Shown piece by piece: positions 8,998 to 28,487 of a DNA stretch of 35,068 nt. A program made the position numbers and the translations under genes. Where the stretch lies: the IMG/VR virus record IMGVR_UViG_3300043445_000047, positions 1-35,068 of that record; one strand, 5' to 3'. The first letter of the stretch is position 1. Every line of letters starts with the position of its first letter. The notes below the pieces were generated by a model. That model searched no databases. It saw only the letters and a program-made list of their open reading frames with translations, and had not been told where the DNA came from. The DNA is from a virus.

Positions 8998-9025
8998 AAA
9001 AAATTTAGGAAAAACCTTCCCTAAA
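8998..9025 (-). terminator. Possible terminator of the 15795-9427 unit
   Basis: Minus strand: TTTAGG (9025-9020) pairs with CCTAAA (9009-9004) around a 10-base loop, then six T. It would stop transcripts that have read through the 9427 stop and across the whole sigma-like gene in antisense. The stem is short, so moderate confidence; the same palindrome sits next to the sigma gene promoter and could also be an operator. Confidence 0.45.
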
Positions 9026-9028
9026 GTA

Positions 9029-9036
9029 TATAAATA
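9029..9036 (+). promoter_or_regulatory. TATAAATA late-type promoter of the sigma-like gene
   Basis: Exact T4 late core TATAAATA on the plus strand. The predicted start site would fall near 9042, just upstream of or inside GGAGGG, leaving a leader of about 13 bases to ATG 9055. This choice of promoter excludes the earlier ATG at 9040. The surrounding 20 bases resemble those at 28433-28452. Confidence 0.5.
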
Positions 9037-9054
9037 AGAATGGAGGGAATATTG

Positions 9055-9432
9055 ATGAGAAAAGCGCCTTATGTAGATCGAGAGAAATTTGATATAGAAT
9101 TTAATAATTGCTTAGGGATTGGGAAGTTGACAGATGAGCTATGTGACATGTTCAGATTGATAATGATCCATAATCTTAATAGAAAAAAATGGTCAACATG
9201 TTTGGGTCAAGAATCCAGAGAGCATATAATGTCTGATGGTTATTTGAGACTTGCAACATATTGGAAGTGCTATAAGCCTGGTAAAGGGAGTCCTATTGCT
9301 TATTTTTCACAATTATTTGAATGTGTCATTTTAAATTATCTTAATCAACATAAGAGAACATATTCAAGGTTATGTTCCCTAGATGTCAAATTTGATAATA
9401 ATTATGAACCTATTGTTGATAATGTTTTATGA
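9055..9432 (+). CDS. T4 gp55-like late sigma factor
   Basis: 125 residues from ATG 9055 (GGAGGG 8 bases upstream; a second ATG at 9040 lacks a site). Residues 24-105 resemble region 2 of T4 gp55: a helix ELCDMFRLIMIHNLN, then EHIMSDGYLRLATYW matching gp55 EMIADGIEASIKGLHNF, then SPIAYFSQLFECVILNYLNQHKR matching the gp55 pattern [22 protein letters not shown]. T4 gp55 has 185 residues; the C-terminal extension that binds the clamp is shorter here. Known: gp55 binds host core polymerase and reads TATAAATA with no -35 element. Ten GATAAATACT sites in this genome support that job. It is the only plus-strand gene in the structural block and ends tail-to-tail with the 9427 gene (6-bp overlap). Similarity judged by eye. 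Confidence 0.7.
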   Translation: MRKAPYVDREKFDIEFNNCLGIGKLTDELCDMFRLIMIHNLNRKKWSTCLGQESREHIMSDGYLRLATYWKCYKPGKGSPIAYFSQLFECVILNYLNQHKRTYSRLCSLDVKFDNNYEPIVDNVL

Positions 9433-19033: not shown

Positions 19034-20300
19034 ATAACGACAGATTAAAGCCTGACAACCCTTTACCGGGTCTGAAGATTGAATAGACTACATAACGGCA
19101 TACATCCCCTCTATGAGGATCTTTATCACCTTTTAATGTGTCTAATGTCCCTTTCTTATATTCAGCATTCTCTAAATCTTTTATCAATAATTTGCAGTTA
19201 GGATTGATTCTTATTTTCCCATCTTCAAAACATTTATTGACACATTCAGCGGAAGTGAATACATCGTAGTTTTGCCTGTTGACTCTATCTGTTATAGAAT
19301 AGCCACGATTTCGCATTTCTCTGATGAAAATATCAACAAATCGATCCCCTATGGTGTTTCTTCTATTGATGGAAGAATCTCCAAACAAATCGAATTTTTT
19401 ATCGTCGGAATTGTAGCGAGTTATAAGCTGCATGACATTAGCATTATCTGATATTGAAACTTCACCCTTGAAATGGATTTTATCTTTGGTATAACGACCA
19501 TATAGCATCGTGAGTGGACTTATGTTTTCATCAATACCAACAAATGCCTTACCTTCATCATCCTTGACATAATCATCATTAGTGACATACTTTCTATCGA
19601 ATGCCCAAAATTGAAGATTGGCTGAGGCATTAATGAACTGACCATGGAGATAAGCAGCCTGGAGCTTTGAAGAATATGATGATTGGAGGGAATCGATATA
19701 GTCTTTTGGTAGTGCGGAATTATAGACTGTACTACCTACATATATTCTTCTTTCAGGAGTTATGTTTTCTACGAAATCACTATAGCACCACGAATCAGTG
19801 CCTTCAGGGGTAGTTGCCCAATTTATTTGCTTCTTTTTTGCTTTAGGATGGCGGATTCTAGACCTAATTAAATTGGGTACGTCGTTCATTGGAATGGATG
19901 AAGATTTTACTCTAGCACATTCATCAACCGCTGCACATGCAACTTCAAATCCTACTAGTCTATGAGGCTCAGATCCGCTAATTAAATATATTGGATTATC
20001 CAAAACTTCTATATATGGAAATTTCAAAGCGCCTTTACCGTTTGGAAAGGTAGAAAATTTAATCCCCCATTCATTTAAAGCAGCTTCTATATTGCTTACA
20101 GAAACTCTAAATAAATCAGAATAAGTAGGTGCTACTACTAGTGACGGACAAGAGTTCATCATATGCAATATAAGATGCTTTCGATAAAGACTGTAAGATT
20201 TTCCTGAACCAAACCCTCCCAAATAGAGGCATTCTTTGGAGGCAAAATCTTTAAGAAATTCTTCTTGCGCCTTTTGATTAGGACGGATCGTTATTTCCAT
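19032..20300 (-). CDS. terL: Terminase large subunit
   Basis: 422 residues, ATG 20300 inside the end of the homing endonuclease gene (23-bp overlap). It packages DNA into the prohead as ATPase plus nuclease. Visible: Walker A GGFGSGKS (28-35); Walker B ACAAVDE (121-127); coupling motif WATTPEG (161-167); nuclease acids FVGIDENIS (D257), DLFGDSS (D308) and DPHRGDV (D399), matching the RNase H-like centre. Length is normal. It works with the small subunit at 21038. An endonuclease gene separates the two subunit genes, unlike most phages. Confidence 0.92.
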   Translation of the reverse strand: MEITIRPNQKAQEEFLKDFASKECLYLGGFGSGKSYSLYRKHLILHMMNSCPSLVVAPTYSDLFRVSVSNIEAALNEWGIKFSTFPNGKGALKFPYIEVLDNPIYLISGSEPHRLVGFEVACAAVDECARVKSSSIPMNDVPNLIRSRIRHPKAKKKQINWATTPEGTDSWCYSDFVENITPERRIYVGSTVYNSALPKDYIDSLQSSYSSKLQAAYLHGQFINASANLQFWAFDRKYVTNDDYVKDDEGKAFVGIDENISPLTMLYGRYTKDKIHFKGEVSISDNANVMQLITRYNSDDKKFDLFGDSSINRRNTIGDRFVDIFIREMRNRGYSITDRVNRQNYDVFTSAECVNKCFEDGKIRINPNCKLLIKDLENAEYKKGTLDTLKGDKDPHRGDVCRYVVYSIFRPGKGLSGFNLSL

Positions 20301-21048
20301 CTATTAACTTCCAATCTAAAAAACGCTTAGTTTTAACTATACCAGTCCTAAAACTATCAGGATTTAAATTTATGTCTCTTGCTATTTGAGTGAGGCATCC
20401 TGTTATAGTCTGACCAGTCTTTATGTTGACCACAGTTCTTATTTTTGCTCTACCATTAGATATACCTTTTCTTGCTACTTTATCTCGCCTTTCTTTTGTC
20501 CATATTCCAGGATTTTTATTATATTCAGTTAAAAACTTATTCCTTTTACCTTTATTAGCGACTGATATTTTTTTTCTAATTTCATCGGAAGGAGAAATAC
20601 CTCTATTATATGCAGGCAATCCTTTATTCCATGATTTTCTTCCGATGCCTTTACCTTTATTAGCGACTGATATTTTTTTTCTGGTTTCAGGAGAATGCTC
20701 TTTACCTTTATTCCAAGGTATTACATTTTTACAACCATCTCCTCCGGCTGTCATATTGTATCCATAATTATCGTTTTGGAGGTTCCACAATGCTATTAAT
20801 TGAGTTTCTATATTTTTCATTCTTTTTTCATCATCTATTATTATGATAATTTCTTTATTTACATTTTCCCACCCATATTTTCTGATAGCATTAGCCAATT
20901 TAGAATTATTTTTAGGTCTTTTGGCTTCGAGTGCCTCACCTTTCCATCTATTTAAAATTCCTTTTTTACCGAAGGATATTCCAACATATCTTTTACCATT
21001 AGGAAAAGTTAGGCAGTATACTCCTTTTATTATTTTTTTAGTTACCAT
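20278..21048 (-). CDS. GIY-YIG homing endonuclease with NUMOD modules
   Basis: 256 residues. GIY-YIG domain: GVY (9-11) and YVG (21-23), a following arginine (34) and the catalytic glutamate in ETQLI (81). Then NUMOD3-type repeats PWNKGKEHSPETRKKISVAN (111-130), NKGLPAYNRGISPSDEIRKK (141-160) and KNPGIWTKERRDKVA (178-192), and a C-terminal helix-turn-helix-like segment. Known: such free-standing genes cut recipient DNA beside their own insertion site and spread by repair. It overlaps the small terminase by 11 bp and the large terminase by 23 bp, so it was fitted into the operon without breaking either. The cut site is probably in a terminase gene of rival phages (inference). Confidence 0.88.
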   Translation of the reverse strand: MVTKKIIKGVYCLTFPNGKRYVGISFGKKGILNRWKGEALEAKRPKNNSKLANAIRKYGWENVNKEIIIIIDDEKRMKNIETQLIALWNLQNDNYGYNMTAGGDGCKNVIPWNKGKEHSPETRKKISVANKGKGIGRKSWNKGLPAYNRGISPSDEIRKKISVANKGKRNKFLTEYNKNPGIWTKERRDKVARKGISNGRAKIRTVVNIKTGQTITGCLTQIARDINLNPDSFRTGIVKTKRFLDWKLIDGNNDPS

Positions 21049-22236: not shown

Positions 22237-22246
22237 AGTATTTATC
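22237..22246 (-). promoter_or_regulatory. Late promoter GATAAATACT, copy 7 (scaffold/terminase unit)
   Basis: Exact decamer on the minus strand, about 65 bases ahead of ATG 22172. Serves scaffold, small terminase, endonuclease and large terminase. Confidence 0.75.
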
Positions 22247-22255
22247 AGGGAGAGT

Positions 22256-22265
22256 GATAAATACT
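22256..22265 (+). promoter_or_regulatory. Late promoter GATAAATACT, copy 8 (plus strand)
   Basis: The only plus-strand copy of the exact decamer, 17 bases ahead of the ATG at 22283. Shows that at least one plus-strand gene is expressed with the virion genes. Confidence 0.72.
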
Positions 22266-22464: not shown

Positions 22465-22758
22465 TAGTGCCACTAGTGCAAGTAGTGCAAGTTAGTGCAA
22501 AAAAATTCTGCACTATCAAAAAGGGCCGTTTTTACAGGGAAATCATATAATATATATATAAAAAAGTATTGTAGTGCAAGAGTGCAAGCGACATCGCCTC
22601 AGAAAAATTTTAACCCTTATCTGACATCATCACCACCCCCAAGAAGCGACCCTTCTTGCACTCTTGCACTAGTGGCATTTTTTTCATATAAGTCTTTTAT
22701 TTTCAATATGTTATATAGTGCAAAAAAAAGTTGCACTAACTTGCACTAACTTGCACTA
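22465..22758. repeat. Array of 13 TAGTGCAA elements in mirrored order (origin or operator)
   Basis: Plus-oriented copies: 22465 (TAGTGCC variant), 22474, 22483, 22493, 22572, 22581, 22716. Minus-oriented copies (TTGCACTA or close): 22509, 22656, 22664, 22731, 22741, 22751. Three plus copies at the left are spaced 9-10 bp and three minus copies at the right exactly 10 bp, one DNA turn. The left and middle groups are tied by a perfect 15-base inverted repeat (TGCCACTAGTGCAAG 22468-22482; its complement 22663-22677). An AT-only stretch at 22546-22566 lies between. Iterons plus an AT-rich stretch is the classical origin layout; it also lies upstream of a helix-turn-helix gene and so could be its operator array. 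Confidence 0.75.
22546..22566. other. AT-only stretch inside the iteron array
   Basis: About 20 bases of alternating A/T (ATATAATATATATATAAAAA at 22546-22565), the lowest-stability stretch of the region and placed between the two iteron groups. It would melt readily, the usual property of a duplex-unwinding element. Function inferred. Confidence 0.4.
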
Positions 22759-23082: not shown

Positions 23083-23322
23083 ATGAAAGATATTATAACA
23101 CTGAATAAATATAAGTCAACTCTCGATTTTATTCTAGAGGCAAATGATTATCAGATAATCGTTAATGATGATGATTCTTCACAGATATATTTTTACCGTG
23201 TCTCGAATGGGATAGAATATATATTGAAAGAAAACGATATTAATGATTTTTATTCTGATAGAAAAAAATATGAAAATAGACAAAAAGAGACAAAAACAAA
23301 CAGCCGAGCATTTTACACCTGA
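23083..23322 (+). CDS. Small protein, 79 residues, unknown function
   Basis: ATG 23083 with AAGGAACTT ahead. Starts MKDIITLNKYKSTLDFILEA, then a beta segment DDSSQIYFYRVSNGIEYIL and a lysine-rich end. Its 3' end overlaps the methyltransferase start by about 50 bases, so the two are expressed together. Soluble, no motif recognised. The overlapping N-terminal part of the ORF at 23243 uses the same DNA but is not the true methyltransferase start. Confidence 0.55.
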   Translation: MKDIITLNKYKSTLDFILEANDYQIIVNDDDSSQIYFYRVSNGIEYILKENDINDFYSDRKKYENRQKETKTNSRAFYT

Positions 23323-23614
23323 CCCTTTGGTGAATGAAATATTGGATAAGCTGGAACATTATGATCCTGATTGTTTTAAGAAGGCTGACAAGAAGTGGTT
23401 GGATCCTTCTTGTGGTAGAGGGGCTTTCTTGATTGGAGTGAGGGAACGATTGCGAAAATACCACCCTGAAGAATGGATCAATGAGAATATGATCTATGGA
23501 GTTGACTTGATGAGAGATAATTGCGAATATTGTAAGTCATTGGGATTTAAAAATATAGTATGCGCAGATGGATTGAAATACGATTATTCATTTAAGGTTG
23601 AGGATTTAATATGA
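23270..23614 (+). CDS. DNA adenine methyltransferase, N-terminal half (AdoMet-binding)
   Basis: Chosen start ATG 23270 (MKIDKKRQKQTAEHFTPD); an upstream ATG at 23243 is in the same frame. About 114 residues. Motif X-like RQKQTAEHFTP (7-17) and motif I WLDPSCGRGAFLIGV (42-56, binds S-adenosylmethionine) are clear, and an acidic motif II follows (YGVDLM). The catalytic NPPY motif is in the next frame: this gene stops by ATGA overlap with 23611. Together they form a normal-sized adenine-N6 enzyme. It probably protects phage DNA from host restriction or adjusts phage promoters; the target sequence is unknown. Confidence 0.8.
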   Translation: MKIDKKRQKQTAEHFTPDPLVNEILDKLEHYDPDCFKKADKKWLDPSCGRGAFLIGVRERLRKYHPEEWINENMIYGVDLMRDNCEYCKSLGFKNIVCADGLKYDYSFKVEDLI

Positions 23615-24465
23615 AGTTCGACTATATCGTTGGGAATCCACCTTATCAAAAGCCTCAGGAGCATGATGGCAAGCGTGGTGGAGGGGAAACCCTTTGGGAT
23701 GAGTTTGTTAAAGTTGCTATCAATTCGATGGTAGTTGATAACGGATTCATCTGCATGATTCATCCTTGTGGTTGGCGTGCTCCTAAGGGGTCGTACCATG
23801 AAGTGAAGGATGCTATGATGGCGAATCAGCTTCACTACCTGGAAATCCATAATTCAGGTGATGGTTTGAAGACCTTTGGTGCGGCTACTCGGTATGACTG
23901 GTATGTTATGCAAAAGTCTGCTCCTAAGAAAAATACTGATATCCTTGATGAAGAAGGGGTATCTTGGAACATCGATTTGAAGACTCTGCCCTTCATCCCT
24001 AATGGAAAAATTGATAAGGTTATGGAGCTGATTGCAGGAGTTGGAGAAGAGAAGGTTGATGTTCTATATTCTAGGTCAGAATACGGAAGTGACAAGGATT
24101 GGATCAGCAAGACAAAAACTCCTACGCATATTTATCCTGTTATTCATTCTATTAAGAAGGCAGGACTTAATCTTCTTTGGTCAAGCAAGAAAGGTACGAT
24201 GATTGGAGTTCCTAAGGTTGTTTTCGGATGCGGTCAAAGCGATACTTTCGTCGATTATAAGGGAGAATATGGAATGTCCCAGCATGCCAGGGCGATTGTT
24301 GCCGATCCTAAAGATCTGGAAAATATAAACAAAGCAATGAACAATCCTGAATTCCTAGAAATTTCTTCGGCTTGCACTCTAGTTTCTACGGGTATGTTCG
24401 TTGATAAGTATAACAAAGATGTCCTCCAGTTGTTCAAGAAGGATTTCTGGAAGGAGTTTGTTTGA
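23611..24465 (+). CDS. DNA adenine methyltransferase, C-terminal half (catalytic NPPY)
   Basis: 284 residues, ATG 23611 in a 4-bp overlap (ATGA) with the N-terminal half. Starts MKFDYIVGNPPYQKP: NPPY (9-12) is the catalytic motif IV of adenine-N6 methyltransferases. Next VVDNGFICMIHPCGWRAPKG is typical of the fold, then a target-recognition region (140-220). Alone it lacks the AdoMet site. Likely a functional two-subunit enzyme made by stop-restart translation, or a fusion if ribosomes slip by -1. No matching nuclease was seen, so this is a solitary methyltransferase. Confidence 0.82.
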   Translation: MKFDYIVGNPPYQKPQEHDGKRGGGETLWDEFVKVAINSMVVDNGFICMIHPCGWRAPKGSYHEVKDAMMANQLHYLEIHNSGDGLKTFGAATRYDWYVMQKSAPKKNTDILDEEGVSWNIDLKTLPFIPNGKIDKVMELIAGVGEEKVDVLYSRSEYGSDKDWISKTKTPTHIYPVIHSIKKAGLNLLWSSKKGTMIGVPKVVFGCGQSDTFVDYKGEYGMSQHARAIVADPKDLENINKAMNNPEFLEISSACTLVSTGMFVDKYNKDVLQLFKKDFWKEFV

Positions 24466-24560
24466 AAGGAATGAGGAAGAAATATATAGGTGGACTGCCA
24501 GGGGCAGGACGCCACTGAGCGAAGCGAATGTGCCACTATAAAAAGCATACATCATATTAT

Positions 24561-24592
24561 TGAACCAGGTATTCGGTATGCCTTTTCACCTG
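24561..24592 (-). repeat. Repeated RNA hairpin module, copy R2
   Basis: Minus sense: CAGGTGAAAAGG, a hairpin, then CTGGTTCA. Matches the copy at 24688-24721 over 32 bases with changes mostly inside the hairpin stem, so shape is kept. GGTTCA resembles the T-loop sequence of tRNA, a frequent tertiary docking element. Also part of a longer stem AAAAG/CTTTT plus CATAC/GTATG. Confidence 0.55.
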
Positions 24593-24687
24593 AAATTTAG
24601 GATTAAATTTATCCCTCACACCCAGAGACCTTCTTCAGTCTTGGATGATTGATCACTCTTTTTTTCGTTGCTTATTTTTTAGTGTTC

Positions 24688-24721
24688 TGAATCAGTATAT
24701 TCGTATATACCTTTTCACCAG
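24688..24721 (-). repeat. Repeated RNA hairpin module, copy R1
   Basis: Minus sense: CTGGTGAAAAGG, then GTATAT-ACGA-ATATAC (6 bp), then CTGATTCA. Near-copy of 24561-24592, about 130 bases away. Confidence 0.55.
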
Positions 24722-25188
24722 TAAGCCCTACTTCAGTATGAGTGTCTTTTTCTTATGTCCCCGTCTCAGTTACCTTCGACGGTCCTACGATCCTTCATTC
24801 TTCAGGATCGTGAACCTTTAAGTTTTAAACTACTTTTCTAACGGATGTTTCTATAGATTTCCTCCAACCCCCTTAGCAGAATTTTTATCCAGCCTTGGAA
24901 GTTGCGTGCATGGGATGTTATGTTGCACTGTTGATAATTGATAAGTCCCATACTCCCTTAACTTTTCTGATCTTCCCCAACGCTATCATGATGCGTAGTA
25001 GGCCCTCACTTACTAAGACGGCCATTATCGTAGCCGTAGACGGATTGCAAAGCACTAACTTGTGGTCCTTCCACTTTCGGAGTCTTTGCACTTTACCCCT
25101 GGGCTTTCACCCACTCATCTTACCCACGCACCGCTCGCGTCTCAGATGATCTCAACGTTCTTTTTAAATGGAACCGTTTAACCATGTC

Positions 25189-25196
25189 TATTTATG
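25189..25196 (-). promoter_or_regulatory. Late-promoter-like CATAAATA ahead of the structured RNA
   Basis: CATAAATAG on the minus strand, differing from the late decamer only at base 1 and beyond base 8. Start expected near 25183, just before the structured region. A TTGACA overlaps it but no good -10 follows. Confidence 0.4.
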
Positions 25197-25218
25197 TCAA
25201 TGAACTTAATCTGATAGT

Positions 25219-25226
25219 TATTTATA
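25219..25226 (-). promoter_or_regulatory. TATAAATA late-type promoter ahead of the structured RNA
   Basis: Exact TATAAATA, followed by ACTATC, on the minus strand, overlapping the stop codon of the 25222-25560 gene. Start expected near 25213, about 30 bases upstream of the structured region. Same stop/promoter overlap as in three virion units. Confidence 0.45.
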
Positions 25227-25560
25227 TCAGGGACTTCAAAATTTTTCTAAGTTTTTTTCTTTTCTTTAATTTGTTAGTTATTGCTTTTCTTAGTGTTGCG
25301 TTTTTAGACACTCCATGTTCATCTTTCCAACACTTAAATCCTCTATTGTTCAAATATTCAACATCATATATAACCAAATTCTTGTATTCATTAGGATTTT
25401 CATCATCGCTTTTAATGGAGTTCTTATGATGATCATTAATCAGCTTATATAGTCTATGCGTAACCTTTTTATTATCCAAGGCTATTTTAAATACTTCCAA
25501 ATTGTCCTCAAAGAATTTTGTTCTGAAAAAATTATCAAGGTTTTTAAAGATTGGTTCCAT
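25222..25560 (-). CDS. Unknown protein, 112 residues, upstream of the structured RNA
   Basis: ATG 25560 behind AGGAGAAGAATT, a good site. Lysine- and asparagine-rich; the final third (SKNATLRKAITNKLKKRKKLRKILKSLI, given in parts) is strongly basic and helical, as in nucleic-acid-binding proteins. It is the only minus-strand gene in the plus-strand block and ends at the promoter of the structured RNA, so it may be the RNA's protein partner (inference). No family recognised. A candidate TTGACA / TAGAAT promoter lies at 25578-25604. Confidence 0.6.
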   Translation of the reverse strand: MEPIFKNLDNFFRTKFFEDNLEVFKIALDNKKVTHRLYKLINDHHKNSIKSDDENPNEYKNLVIYDVEYLNNRGFKCWKDEHGVSKNATLRKAITNKLKKRKKLRKILKSLI

Positions 25561-25577
25561 AATTCTTCTCCTATTTA

Positions 25578-25604
25578 CTATTCTATATCACCTTTTTAAT
25601 TGTC
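25578..25604 (-). promoter_or_regulatory. Possible host-type promoter for the 25560 gene
   Basis: Minus strand: TTGACA (25604-25599) and, 15 bases on, TAGAAT. Spacing is two bases short of ideal, so weak. It follows the T-tract of the terminator at 25606-25672. Confidence 0.35.
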
Positions 25605-25605
25605 A

Positions 25606-25672
25606 ATAAAAAGAAAAACCCTAAGTATTGAAGAAGTTTTTGGCTTATAGGTCAGAACTTCAATACTTAGGG
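25606..25672 (-). terminator. Strong minus-strand hairpin terminator, 15-bp perfect stem
   Basis: CCCTAAGTATTGAAG (25619-25633) and CTTCAATACTTAGGG (25658-25672) pair perfectly around a 24-base loop; minus strand continues TTTTTCTTTTTAT. No minus-strand gene lies upstream for 4 kb, so it may stop antisense transcripts or shield the 25560 gene and RNA from read-through. Plus strand lacks a T-tract. Confidence 0.7.
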
Positions 25673-25828
25673 TCTTCTATGTAGCATTAGACACGACAAC
25701 TTGTATTCGGAGAAATAATCCATTGTTGCTACTCCAATATTATAATGGGAAAAATACAATTGTCAAACTATTTTTTATTTCTAAGGAAAATACAGGATAC
25801 GGGAAGAGGGTGTTTTAGAGGACTTGAA
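25673..25828. other. Gene-free spacer, 25673-25828
   Basis: No reading frame or RNA gene seen. Contains TATAAT at 25741 without a good -35, and a GGAG..CTCC pairing around 25709-25735. Probably holds promoter elements for the small-gene operon. Confidence 0.35.
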
Positions 25829-25836
25829 TATAAATA
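25829..25836 (+). promoter_or_regulatory. TATAAATA late-type promoter of the small-gene operon
   Basis: Exact TATAAATA on the plus strand, 59 bases upstream of ATG 25895. Its leader contains a 7-bp hairpin AATGGTT/AACCATT (25849-25872) directly ahead of the ribosome binding site. Confidence 0.45.
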
Positions 25837-25894
25837 ACAATATATACAATGGTTCATTGAAGACAACCATTAACAACTAAAGGAGAAAAAAGAC

Positions 25895-26395
25895 ATGGCA
25901 TATACACAATTAACAAATTATAAGGATGAAAAGCATGAGCTGAGAATAGAATCTTTTTTGAAGTTTCTAAATCATACATTCTTCCTTATGTTTGGTGATG
26001 AAAAAATAAAAGAAGGAACTTTTCCAAAAATAAAATGTGATGTTCTAGACACTGTCATATCATGGGATGATGAAGCTGTTGCTGCTAGAACACAAAAAGA
26101 GCATGTTGAGAATTATAAAGCTAAGCTAAAGGATGATGAAAAGGCTGCAAAGAGAATCAGAAAAATAAAACATTCAAAATGCAATTTATTTCAATTGAGA
26201 ATAACTAACAACAATAAAGAATTGGGAAACGAGCTGAAGAGACTATTCAAGCTTATATTAAAATCAAAAGTATGCATAGAAAATACCCCTCAATGCTACT
26301 TATATGAGAATAGAATGAGTGGTAAACTTAATTTCAGTCATCCAGGCGGTAAAGAATTGTACATAAGAATAATTTGGATAGGAGAAAACATATGA
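25895..26395 (+). CDS. Unknown protein, 166 residues, first gene of the small-gene operon
   Basis: ATG 25895 behind AAAGGAGAAAAAAG. N-terminal half may be a small folded domain (FLKFLNHTFFLMFGDEK); the centre is strongly charged helix (HVENYKAKLKDDEKAAKRI). Then mixed alpha/beta (FQLRITNNNKELGNELKRL) and a C-terminal strand YIRIIWIGENI. Overlaps the next start by 4 bp (ATGA). No family recognised. First gene of a run joined by overlaps, so products are probably needed in similar amounts. Confidence 0.6.
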   Translation: MAYTQLTNYKDEKHELRIESFLKFLNHTFFLMFGDEKIKEGTFPKIKCDVLDTVISWDDEAVAARTQKEHVENYKAKLKDDEKAAKRIRKIKHSKCNLFQLRITNNNKELGNELKRLFKLILKSKVCIENTPQCYLYENRMSGKLNFSHPGGKELYIRIIWIGENI

Positions 26396-27839: not shown

Positions 27840-28424
27840 ATGGAAGAAAAGCTACCAAAAGGCATATATCTTAAAGACGGAAGGTTTTATAAGGTGTCCT
27901 ATTATAATCCTAACTTAAAGAAAGTTGAATATGTTGGTTCGTCAACTACTTTAGAAGAAGCAATCCGAATCAGAGACGAATATGTGAATAGTGGTTATAT
28001 GAATAAGGCTGGAGGTGGAGTATTTGGAAAGAAGTGGGACGGATGGAAAAGGGAAGAAATAGACGGAAAAATGGTTGATGTCCTTTACGATTTGGATGCA
28101 TTTTATGAATATATAATGGCCGAAGAAAAAGAAAAACTCCGAACGATAAAGGTTGAAGAGGAAGAAACGGAAGAAAATGATGATGAAATTGAAAAAACTG
28201 TAAAAGAAAAACCAATACAATGGGCAACCCCTACAGATTATAAAAGAGTATTCATGAGAAAGGGAGGGTCTTACTTCTATACATTGAAGGGCGCTAAAAA
28301 ATATTTCGGGTGGTATATGAATATTGATGATGCTTTATATGCACATTTGCTCCACGAATATTTAGGTGAATATGAATACGGTTCTATGAAACCCTGCAAA
28401 AATACTAGAAAAAAAAGTTGTTAG
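27840..28424 (+). CDS. Protein with two AP2-like DNA-binding domains
   Basis: 194 residues, ATG 27840. Residues 7-48 (KGIYLKDGRFYKVSYYN, YVGSSTTLEEAIRIRDEY) match the AP2 fold: three strands and a helix. A second, weaker copy lies at 136-175 (RVFMRKGGSYFYT, YFGWYMNIDDALYAHLLHEY). Between them is a very acidic linker (KVEEEETEENDDEIEKT). AP2 domains in phages usually accompany homing endonucleases, but no nuclease motif is present. It may be a remnant or a free-standing binder. Confidence 0.6.
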   Translation: MEEKLPKGIYLKDGRFYKVSYYNPNLKKVEYVGSSTTLEEAIRIRDEYVNSGYMNKAGGGVFGKKWDGWKREEIDGKMVDVLYDLDAFYEYIMAEEKEKLRTIKVEEEETEENDDEIEKTVKEKPIQWATPTDYKRVFMRKGGSYFYTLKGAKKYFGWYMNIDDALYAHLLHEYLGEYEYGSMKPCKNTRKKSC

Positions 28425-28441
28425 GAAATTGCCCTAAGTTA

Positions 28442-28449
28442 TATAAATA
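28442..28449 (+). promoter_or_regulatory. TATAAATA late-type promoter before the HNH gene
   Basis: Exact TATAAATA, 39 bases upstream of ATG 28488. The flanking bases match those around the sigma gene promoter: CCCTAA, five to six bases, then TATAAATAA in both. Confidence 0.5.
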
Positions 28450-28487
28450 AAAGTATAACAAGCATAACACGACAAGGAGAAATGATT

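Follow-up and report, generated by a model that had tools for sequence, protein, structure and literature searches.

The phage fragment analysed here, a linear IMG/VR record of 35,068 bases (the window), is approximately 92% coding, with an intergenic share of about 8% of its bases. Its largest gap, 756 bases at positions 24466-25221, raised the question of what such a long stretch might encode, if anything. We found that the gap is best read as a structured non-coding RNA of about 720 nt on the minus strand, a reading to which we give a probability of roughly 0.6. It is likely that this putative RNA is a novel large phage RNA. A first-pass annotation of the same DNA had proposed a large non-coding RNA under late control. 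The minus-strand non-coding RNA stood as the best reading, whereas the late link did not, since the sites cited for it do not match the late-type promoter of this phage, and the suggested GOLLD and ROOL families were not matched either.

The genes for the large and small terminase, the portal protein and the major head protein were all present in the window. The structural genes are on the minus strand and flank a mostly plus-strand region of about 22.3-29.9 kb, within which a 112-aa ORF (25222-25560) and the gap form a small minus-strand block. On the other side of the gap an N6-adenine methylase is encoded on the plus strand (23243-24465) in two overlapping ORFs, 23243-23614 with the N6_Mtase part and 23611-24465 with the Eco57I part. 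A GIY-YIG-type homing endonuclease gene (20278-21048, minus strand) separates the genes of the small and the large terminase and overlaps the latter at its start. The large terminase was about 27% identical to terminases of known phages and no terminase relative above 31% identity was found in IMG/VR; with these values the phage is, by sequence comparison, an orphan within the collections searched. No close phage relative was found when the methylase, the head protein, the terminase and the 112-aa ORF were used for searching.

The open frames of at least 40 codons in the gap had codon-usage scores of -0.44 to +0.09 bits per codon, compared to 0.17 to 0.45 for the phage genes, and the six frames of the gap that were scanned had no match in Pfam or PHROGs. 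The earlier claim that the stretch holds no gene was thus confirmed. A match to a protein-coding or intron family was also looked for, and none was obtained with Pfam, PHROGs or the group I and group II intron models. A decayed gene was rejected, as the open frames had no protein match. The G+C content of the gap was about 38-46% versus 27-32% in the DNA to its right, and it was not above that of the DNA to its left. The minus strand of the gap was purine-rich.

Folding was specific to one strand. Over the full length, the minus strand had a fold z of -2.47, which was equalled by 2 of 80 shuffles, while the plus strand was unremarkable (z = -1.09). The excess resided mostly in the 3' part of the minus strand, where z was -2.90 and was equalled by 1 of 200 shuffles. 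The many stems that had been noted were therefore borne out moderately, and on the minus strand only. The preference of G-U pairs for the minus strand was also borne out: 19 confident G-U pairs were counted there, as against 1 for the plus strand, and none of 60 shuffles reached this difference. The total number of confident pairs on the minus strand was not unusual (15 of 60 shuffles had as many), and the long-range stems that would close the domains were weak, with P of about 0.2-0.4.

Several local helices were predicted on the minus strand. Hairpin GGUUCACGAUCCU/AGGAUCGUAGGACC with loop GAAGAAUGA (24781-24816) and hairpin CAUCCAAGACU/GGUCUCUGGGUG (24619-24647) each had a mean pair probability of 0.98. 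The stacked helices CAACUUCC/GGGGGUUG and GGCUGGAU/AUUCUGCU at 24865-24904 (0.98 and 0.88) contained an AA/AA internal loop and many G-U pairs, and helix UGCAAAGACU/AGUGCUUUGCA at 25046-25090 enclosed an inner hairpin GUGG/CCAC (0.89 and 0.97). On inspection, the GNRA loop that had been reported was found as a GAAA tetraloop, GGGU-GAAA-GCCC, at about 25112-25101. The repeated hairpin module proposed by the first-pass annotation comprised a hairpin with GGUGAAAAGG at 24565-24593 (mean pair probability 0.87) and a second GGUGAAAAGG stretch with hairpin GGUAUAU/AUAUACU at 24688-24724 (0.93). The two 19-nt copies were 84% identical; shuffles showed self-similarity as strong in 50 of 200 cases when gaps were allowed and in 16 of 120 when they were not, so the module was not upheld.

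The candidate RNA was placed at 24488-25211 on the minus strand. We infer both ends: a promoter-like motif at 25250-25218 sets the 5' end, and a weak stem (P about 0.25) that would pair 24775-24759 with 24503-24488 and close the structure sets the 3' end. The statement that the RNA ends in a hairpin was left uncertain: small hairpins and this weak possible closing stem were present, but no intrinsic-terminator match was found in 24000-26200.

The motif at the 5' edge has counterparts elsewhere in the window. Four copies of ATATAAATAA were found versus 0.33 expected, and three of the four were part of a composite, TTAGRAAA-N12-15-ATATAAATAA. This composite had three exact copies in the window and none in 100 shuffles, and the next best places in the window carried 2 mismatches. 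One copy (9005-9037, plus strand) lies ahead of a weakly sigma-like ORF (9040/9055-9432) and another (28421-28450, plus strand) ahead of an HNH gene at 28482. The third, TTAGAAAA-N15-ATATAAATAA at 25218-25250 on the minus strand, lies at the 5' edge of the RNA and overlaps the final codons of the 112-aa ORF. One of the two promoter sites of the first-pass annotation is part of this composite. Because the motif was defined after the fact, it is a lead and not proof. If the composite is a promoter class, the RNA would begin near 25211 and be timed with the middle genes, and the motif offers a testable handle on the timing of RNA synthesis. The ORF at 9040-9432 (plus strand) had a weak match to sigma-70 region 2 (Pfam E 0.0026, NCBIfam E 0.0061, both below the curated cut-offs). 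No relative of it was found in phages or the PDB, and its AlphaFold model was uninformative (pLDDT 38). It is a candidate late sigma factor, which would fit the late-type promoters of this phage.

Ten near-identical late-type sites of the form GATAAATACTAWT were present, one of them reading GATAAATACTTAT. Nine were on the minus strand (2908, 7721, 7919, 8986, 15832, 19032, 22245, 31603 and 33456), most of them upstream of structural genes, and one was on the plus strand at 22257, forming an inverted pair with that at 22245. With a weight matrix made from the same nine minus-strand sites, the late-type sites scored 17.8-23.7 bits, and 12.0 was the highest score elsewhere in the window. The T4 late promoter is TATAAATA, and the ten GATAAATACTAWT sites were strongly T4-late-like. 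The two sites cited as late-promoter-like upstream of the RNA, TATAAATA and CATAAATA, scored 0.4 and -1.7 bits and ranked 207 and 420, and shuffles yielded about 180 and 360 places as good, so the cited pair was at background. With such scores the claim of late control fails as stated, and late control through this pair was rejected, since neither is the late-type promoter of this phage.

The RNA reading had two main rivals, idle sequence and a long 3' UTR belonging to the 112-aa ORF. The 112-aa ORF adjoins the candidate RNA upstream, has a basic C-terminus and showed gene-like codon usage (0.24). Searches returned no relatives of it, and its predicted structure was all-helical with low confidence (pLDDT 62). 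It is possibly a partner of the candidate RNA or a co-transcribed gene. The stretch could be a long structured 3' UTR on the mRNA of this ORF and not an independent RNA, considering that the ORF ends at 25222 on the same strand, directly at the 5' edge of the RNA, that a TTGACA box is found upstream of the ORF at 25606 and that no terminator match lies between ORF and RNA. However, the composite promoter-like motif is located at the 3' end of the ORF, and more than 700 nt would be unusual for a 3' UTR in a phage about 92% coding. We regard this explanation as unlikely.

The stretch could also be non-functional, whether as idle spacer, as the remains of a decayed gene or as a scar left by recombination where convergent units meet. 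In agreement with this, homologues were absent from all collections searched. DNA patterns taken from the RNA found no homologue in IMG/VR and nothing in the GTDB genomes; the sole pattern with hits matched sequences unlike the RNA, all but one of them inside long open frames. BLASTN against phages and against plasmids gave only chance hits. The pattern scans register only sequences identical to a short pattern and would therefore overlook diverged homologues, and records very close to the window may have lain outside the set searched. The moderate fold z and a self-similarity not above chance would likewise be expected of idle sequence, but the G-U asymmetry between the strands was matched by no shuffle, the open frames carried no protein remnant and this genome has few large gaps. 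We consider a lack of function quite improbable. For the RNA reading we counted the non-coding character, the strand-specific fold, the G-U asymmetry, the purine-rich strand, the motif, and the size and setting; against it we counted the missing homologue, the moderate z, the weak long-range stems, the missing terminator and the post-hoc motif.

An iteron-like cluster of AGTGCAA, with at least ten copies in 300 bases and in both orientations, was observed at 22466-22757, and from its sequence this cluster is a candidate replication origin. The gap itself might be a DNA element as well, serving as a replication origin, a packaging site or a regulatory site, given the AGTGCAA cluster 2 kb off (22475-22757) and AAGTTAGTGC, one of whose four copies is within the stretch (25052-25061). 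Yet just two AGTGCAA copies were found in the stretch, and G-U asymmetry is a property of RNA, which makes a DNA element very unlikely. Since this pattern was picked post hoc, the occurrence of AAGTTAGTGC in both the iteron cluster and the RNA region is probably a coincidence.

The minus-strand RNA was also compared with known RNA families. Rfam gave nothing at gathering scores, and up to E 10 merely chance matches to small RNAs. The GOLLD model (RF02032, conserved 3' region) was unmatched at the gathering score, at E 10 and in a targeted search. ROOL (RF03087) gave no match, and its targeted negative is weaker because the ROOL control genomes gave no match in that search either. For the group I intron core (RF00028) and the group II intron domain V-VI (RF00029), nothing was found at E 10, and the control genomes were matched in both cases. 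The idea of a distant GOLLD, to be checked by Infernal with the Rfam GOLLD and ROOL models, was thus left without a match, targeted searches included. Membership in the GOLLD or ROOL families, in either intron group or in any other Rfam family was rejected for lack of an Infernal match, and a suspected resemblance to a group II intron segment was backed by no search. The candidate RNA is like GOLLD in size class (many members exceed 800 nt) and phage setting, and like ROOL in the same two respects (the env-120 member has 659 nt) (PMC12286853). In contrast to GOLLD, in which tRNA neighbours are frequent but not universal, it has none, and ARAGORN found no tRNA gene across the 35 kb fragment. 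It likewise differs from ROOL in lacking tRNA neighbours and an RF03087 match.

The closest analogue in the literature examined is the RNA of Vibrio phage ICP1, a noncoding RNA of about 800 nt that is the most abundant transcript of that phage and comes from an ORF-less gap (PMC7567579). This gap is at about 80.1-81.1 kb of NC_015157. Both RNAs are large, ORF-less and from tailed phages, and tRNAs are absent from ICP1 (PMC7567579) as well as from the window. BLAST of the ICP1 RNA against the window RNA gave chance hits only. Diverged relatives of the ICP1 RNA were detected in further Vibrio and Shewanella phages, and a model of one domain of the RNA (R1) was built from an alignment of 7 phages, with copies at L015:8431-8549 (minus strand), L123:1247-1361, L124:1201-1316, L127:1121-1256 and L129-L131:1098-1233. 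This domain contained 12 pairs with compensatory changes, its covariation score was 0.438 versus 0.161 in shuffles, and it had no Rfam match. With this strong covariation and no Rfam counterpart, the domain in the diverged Vibrio phages is an undescribed RNA family. In some phages it adjoins tRNA genes. The R1 covariance model scored its own members at 104-161 bits and gave zero hits in 24489-25226 with filters off. Homology to the ICP1 RNA was thus unsupported by BLAST or by the one-domain covariance model, and by this comparison the window RNA is not detectably of the ICP1 family as far as the one domain modelled is concerned. By analogy, it may still work like the ICP1 RNA.

A member of a known family so highly diverged that the models miss it, be it a degenerate self-splicing intron, GOLLD, ROOL or the ICP1 RNA, would fit the size, the phage setting and the sequence conservation of GOLLD/ROOL-type classes, which is not high (PMC12286853), but Rfam up to E 10 gave chance small RNAs only, the targeted searches were negative (that for ROOL less tellingly, its controls being silent) and the ICP1-domain model was silent in the region with filters off, so we hold this to be extremely improbable.

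What we infer for the transcription, timing, stability and role of the minus-strand RNA would be as follows. The RNA would be transcribed as its own unit from a promoter at 25250-25218. The same promoter class would precede the weakly sigma-like gene (9055-9432) and the HNH gene (28482), and this points to timing that is middle or delayed-early, not late. GOLLD, ROOL and the ICP1 RNA are large phage RNAs that can reach very high levels, and two of the three, ROOL and GOLLD, assemble into homo-oligomeric RNA nanocages; to our knowledge, the function is known for none of them. By analogy with them, the window RNA would most likely accumulate during infection as an abundant, stable, folded molecule, and would most likely act through its structure and not as an antisense regulator or mRNA leader. 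It is possible, and we propose it only tentatively, that it founds a class of its own among the large ornate RNAs of phages, with no sequence relationship to GOLLD, ROOL or the ICP1 RNA, and that a phage-specific promoter of its own drives its synthesis together with the middle genes, the presumptive late sigma factor among them. If this were true, RNAs of this type would have arisen in phages on several independent occasions; an unrelated RNA in a phage with only about 27% terminase identity to known phages would argue for their repeated origin.

Beside the large RNA, at 25766-25600 on the minus strand, a perfect promoter of the form TTGACA-N16-TATAAT precedes a strong hairpin and a T-run. 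By its sequence, this is a candidate for a small RNA, about 130 nt long, that is made independently.
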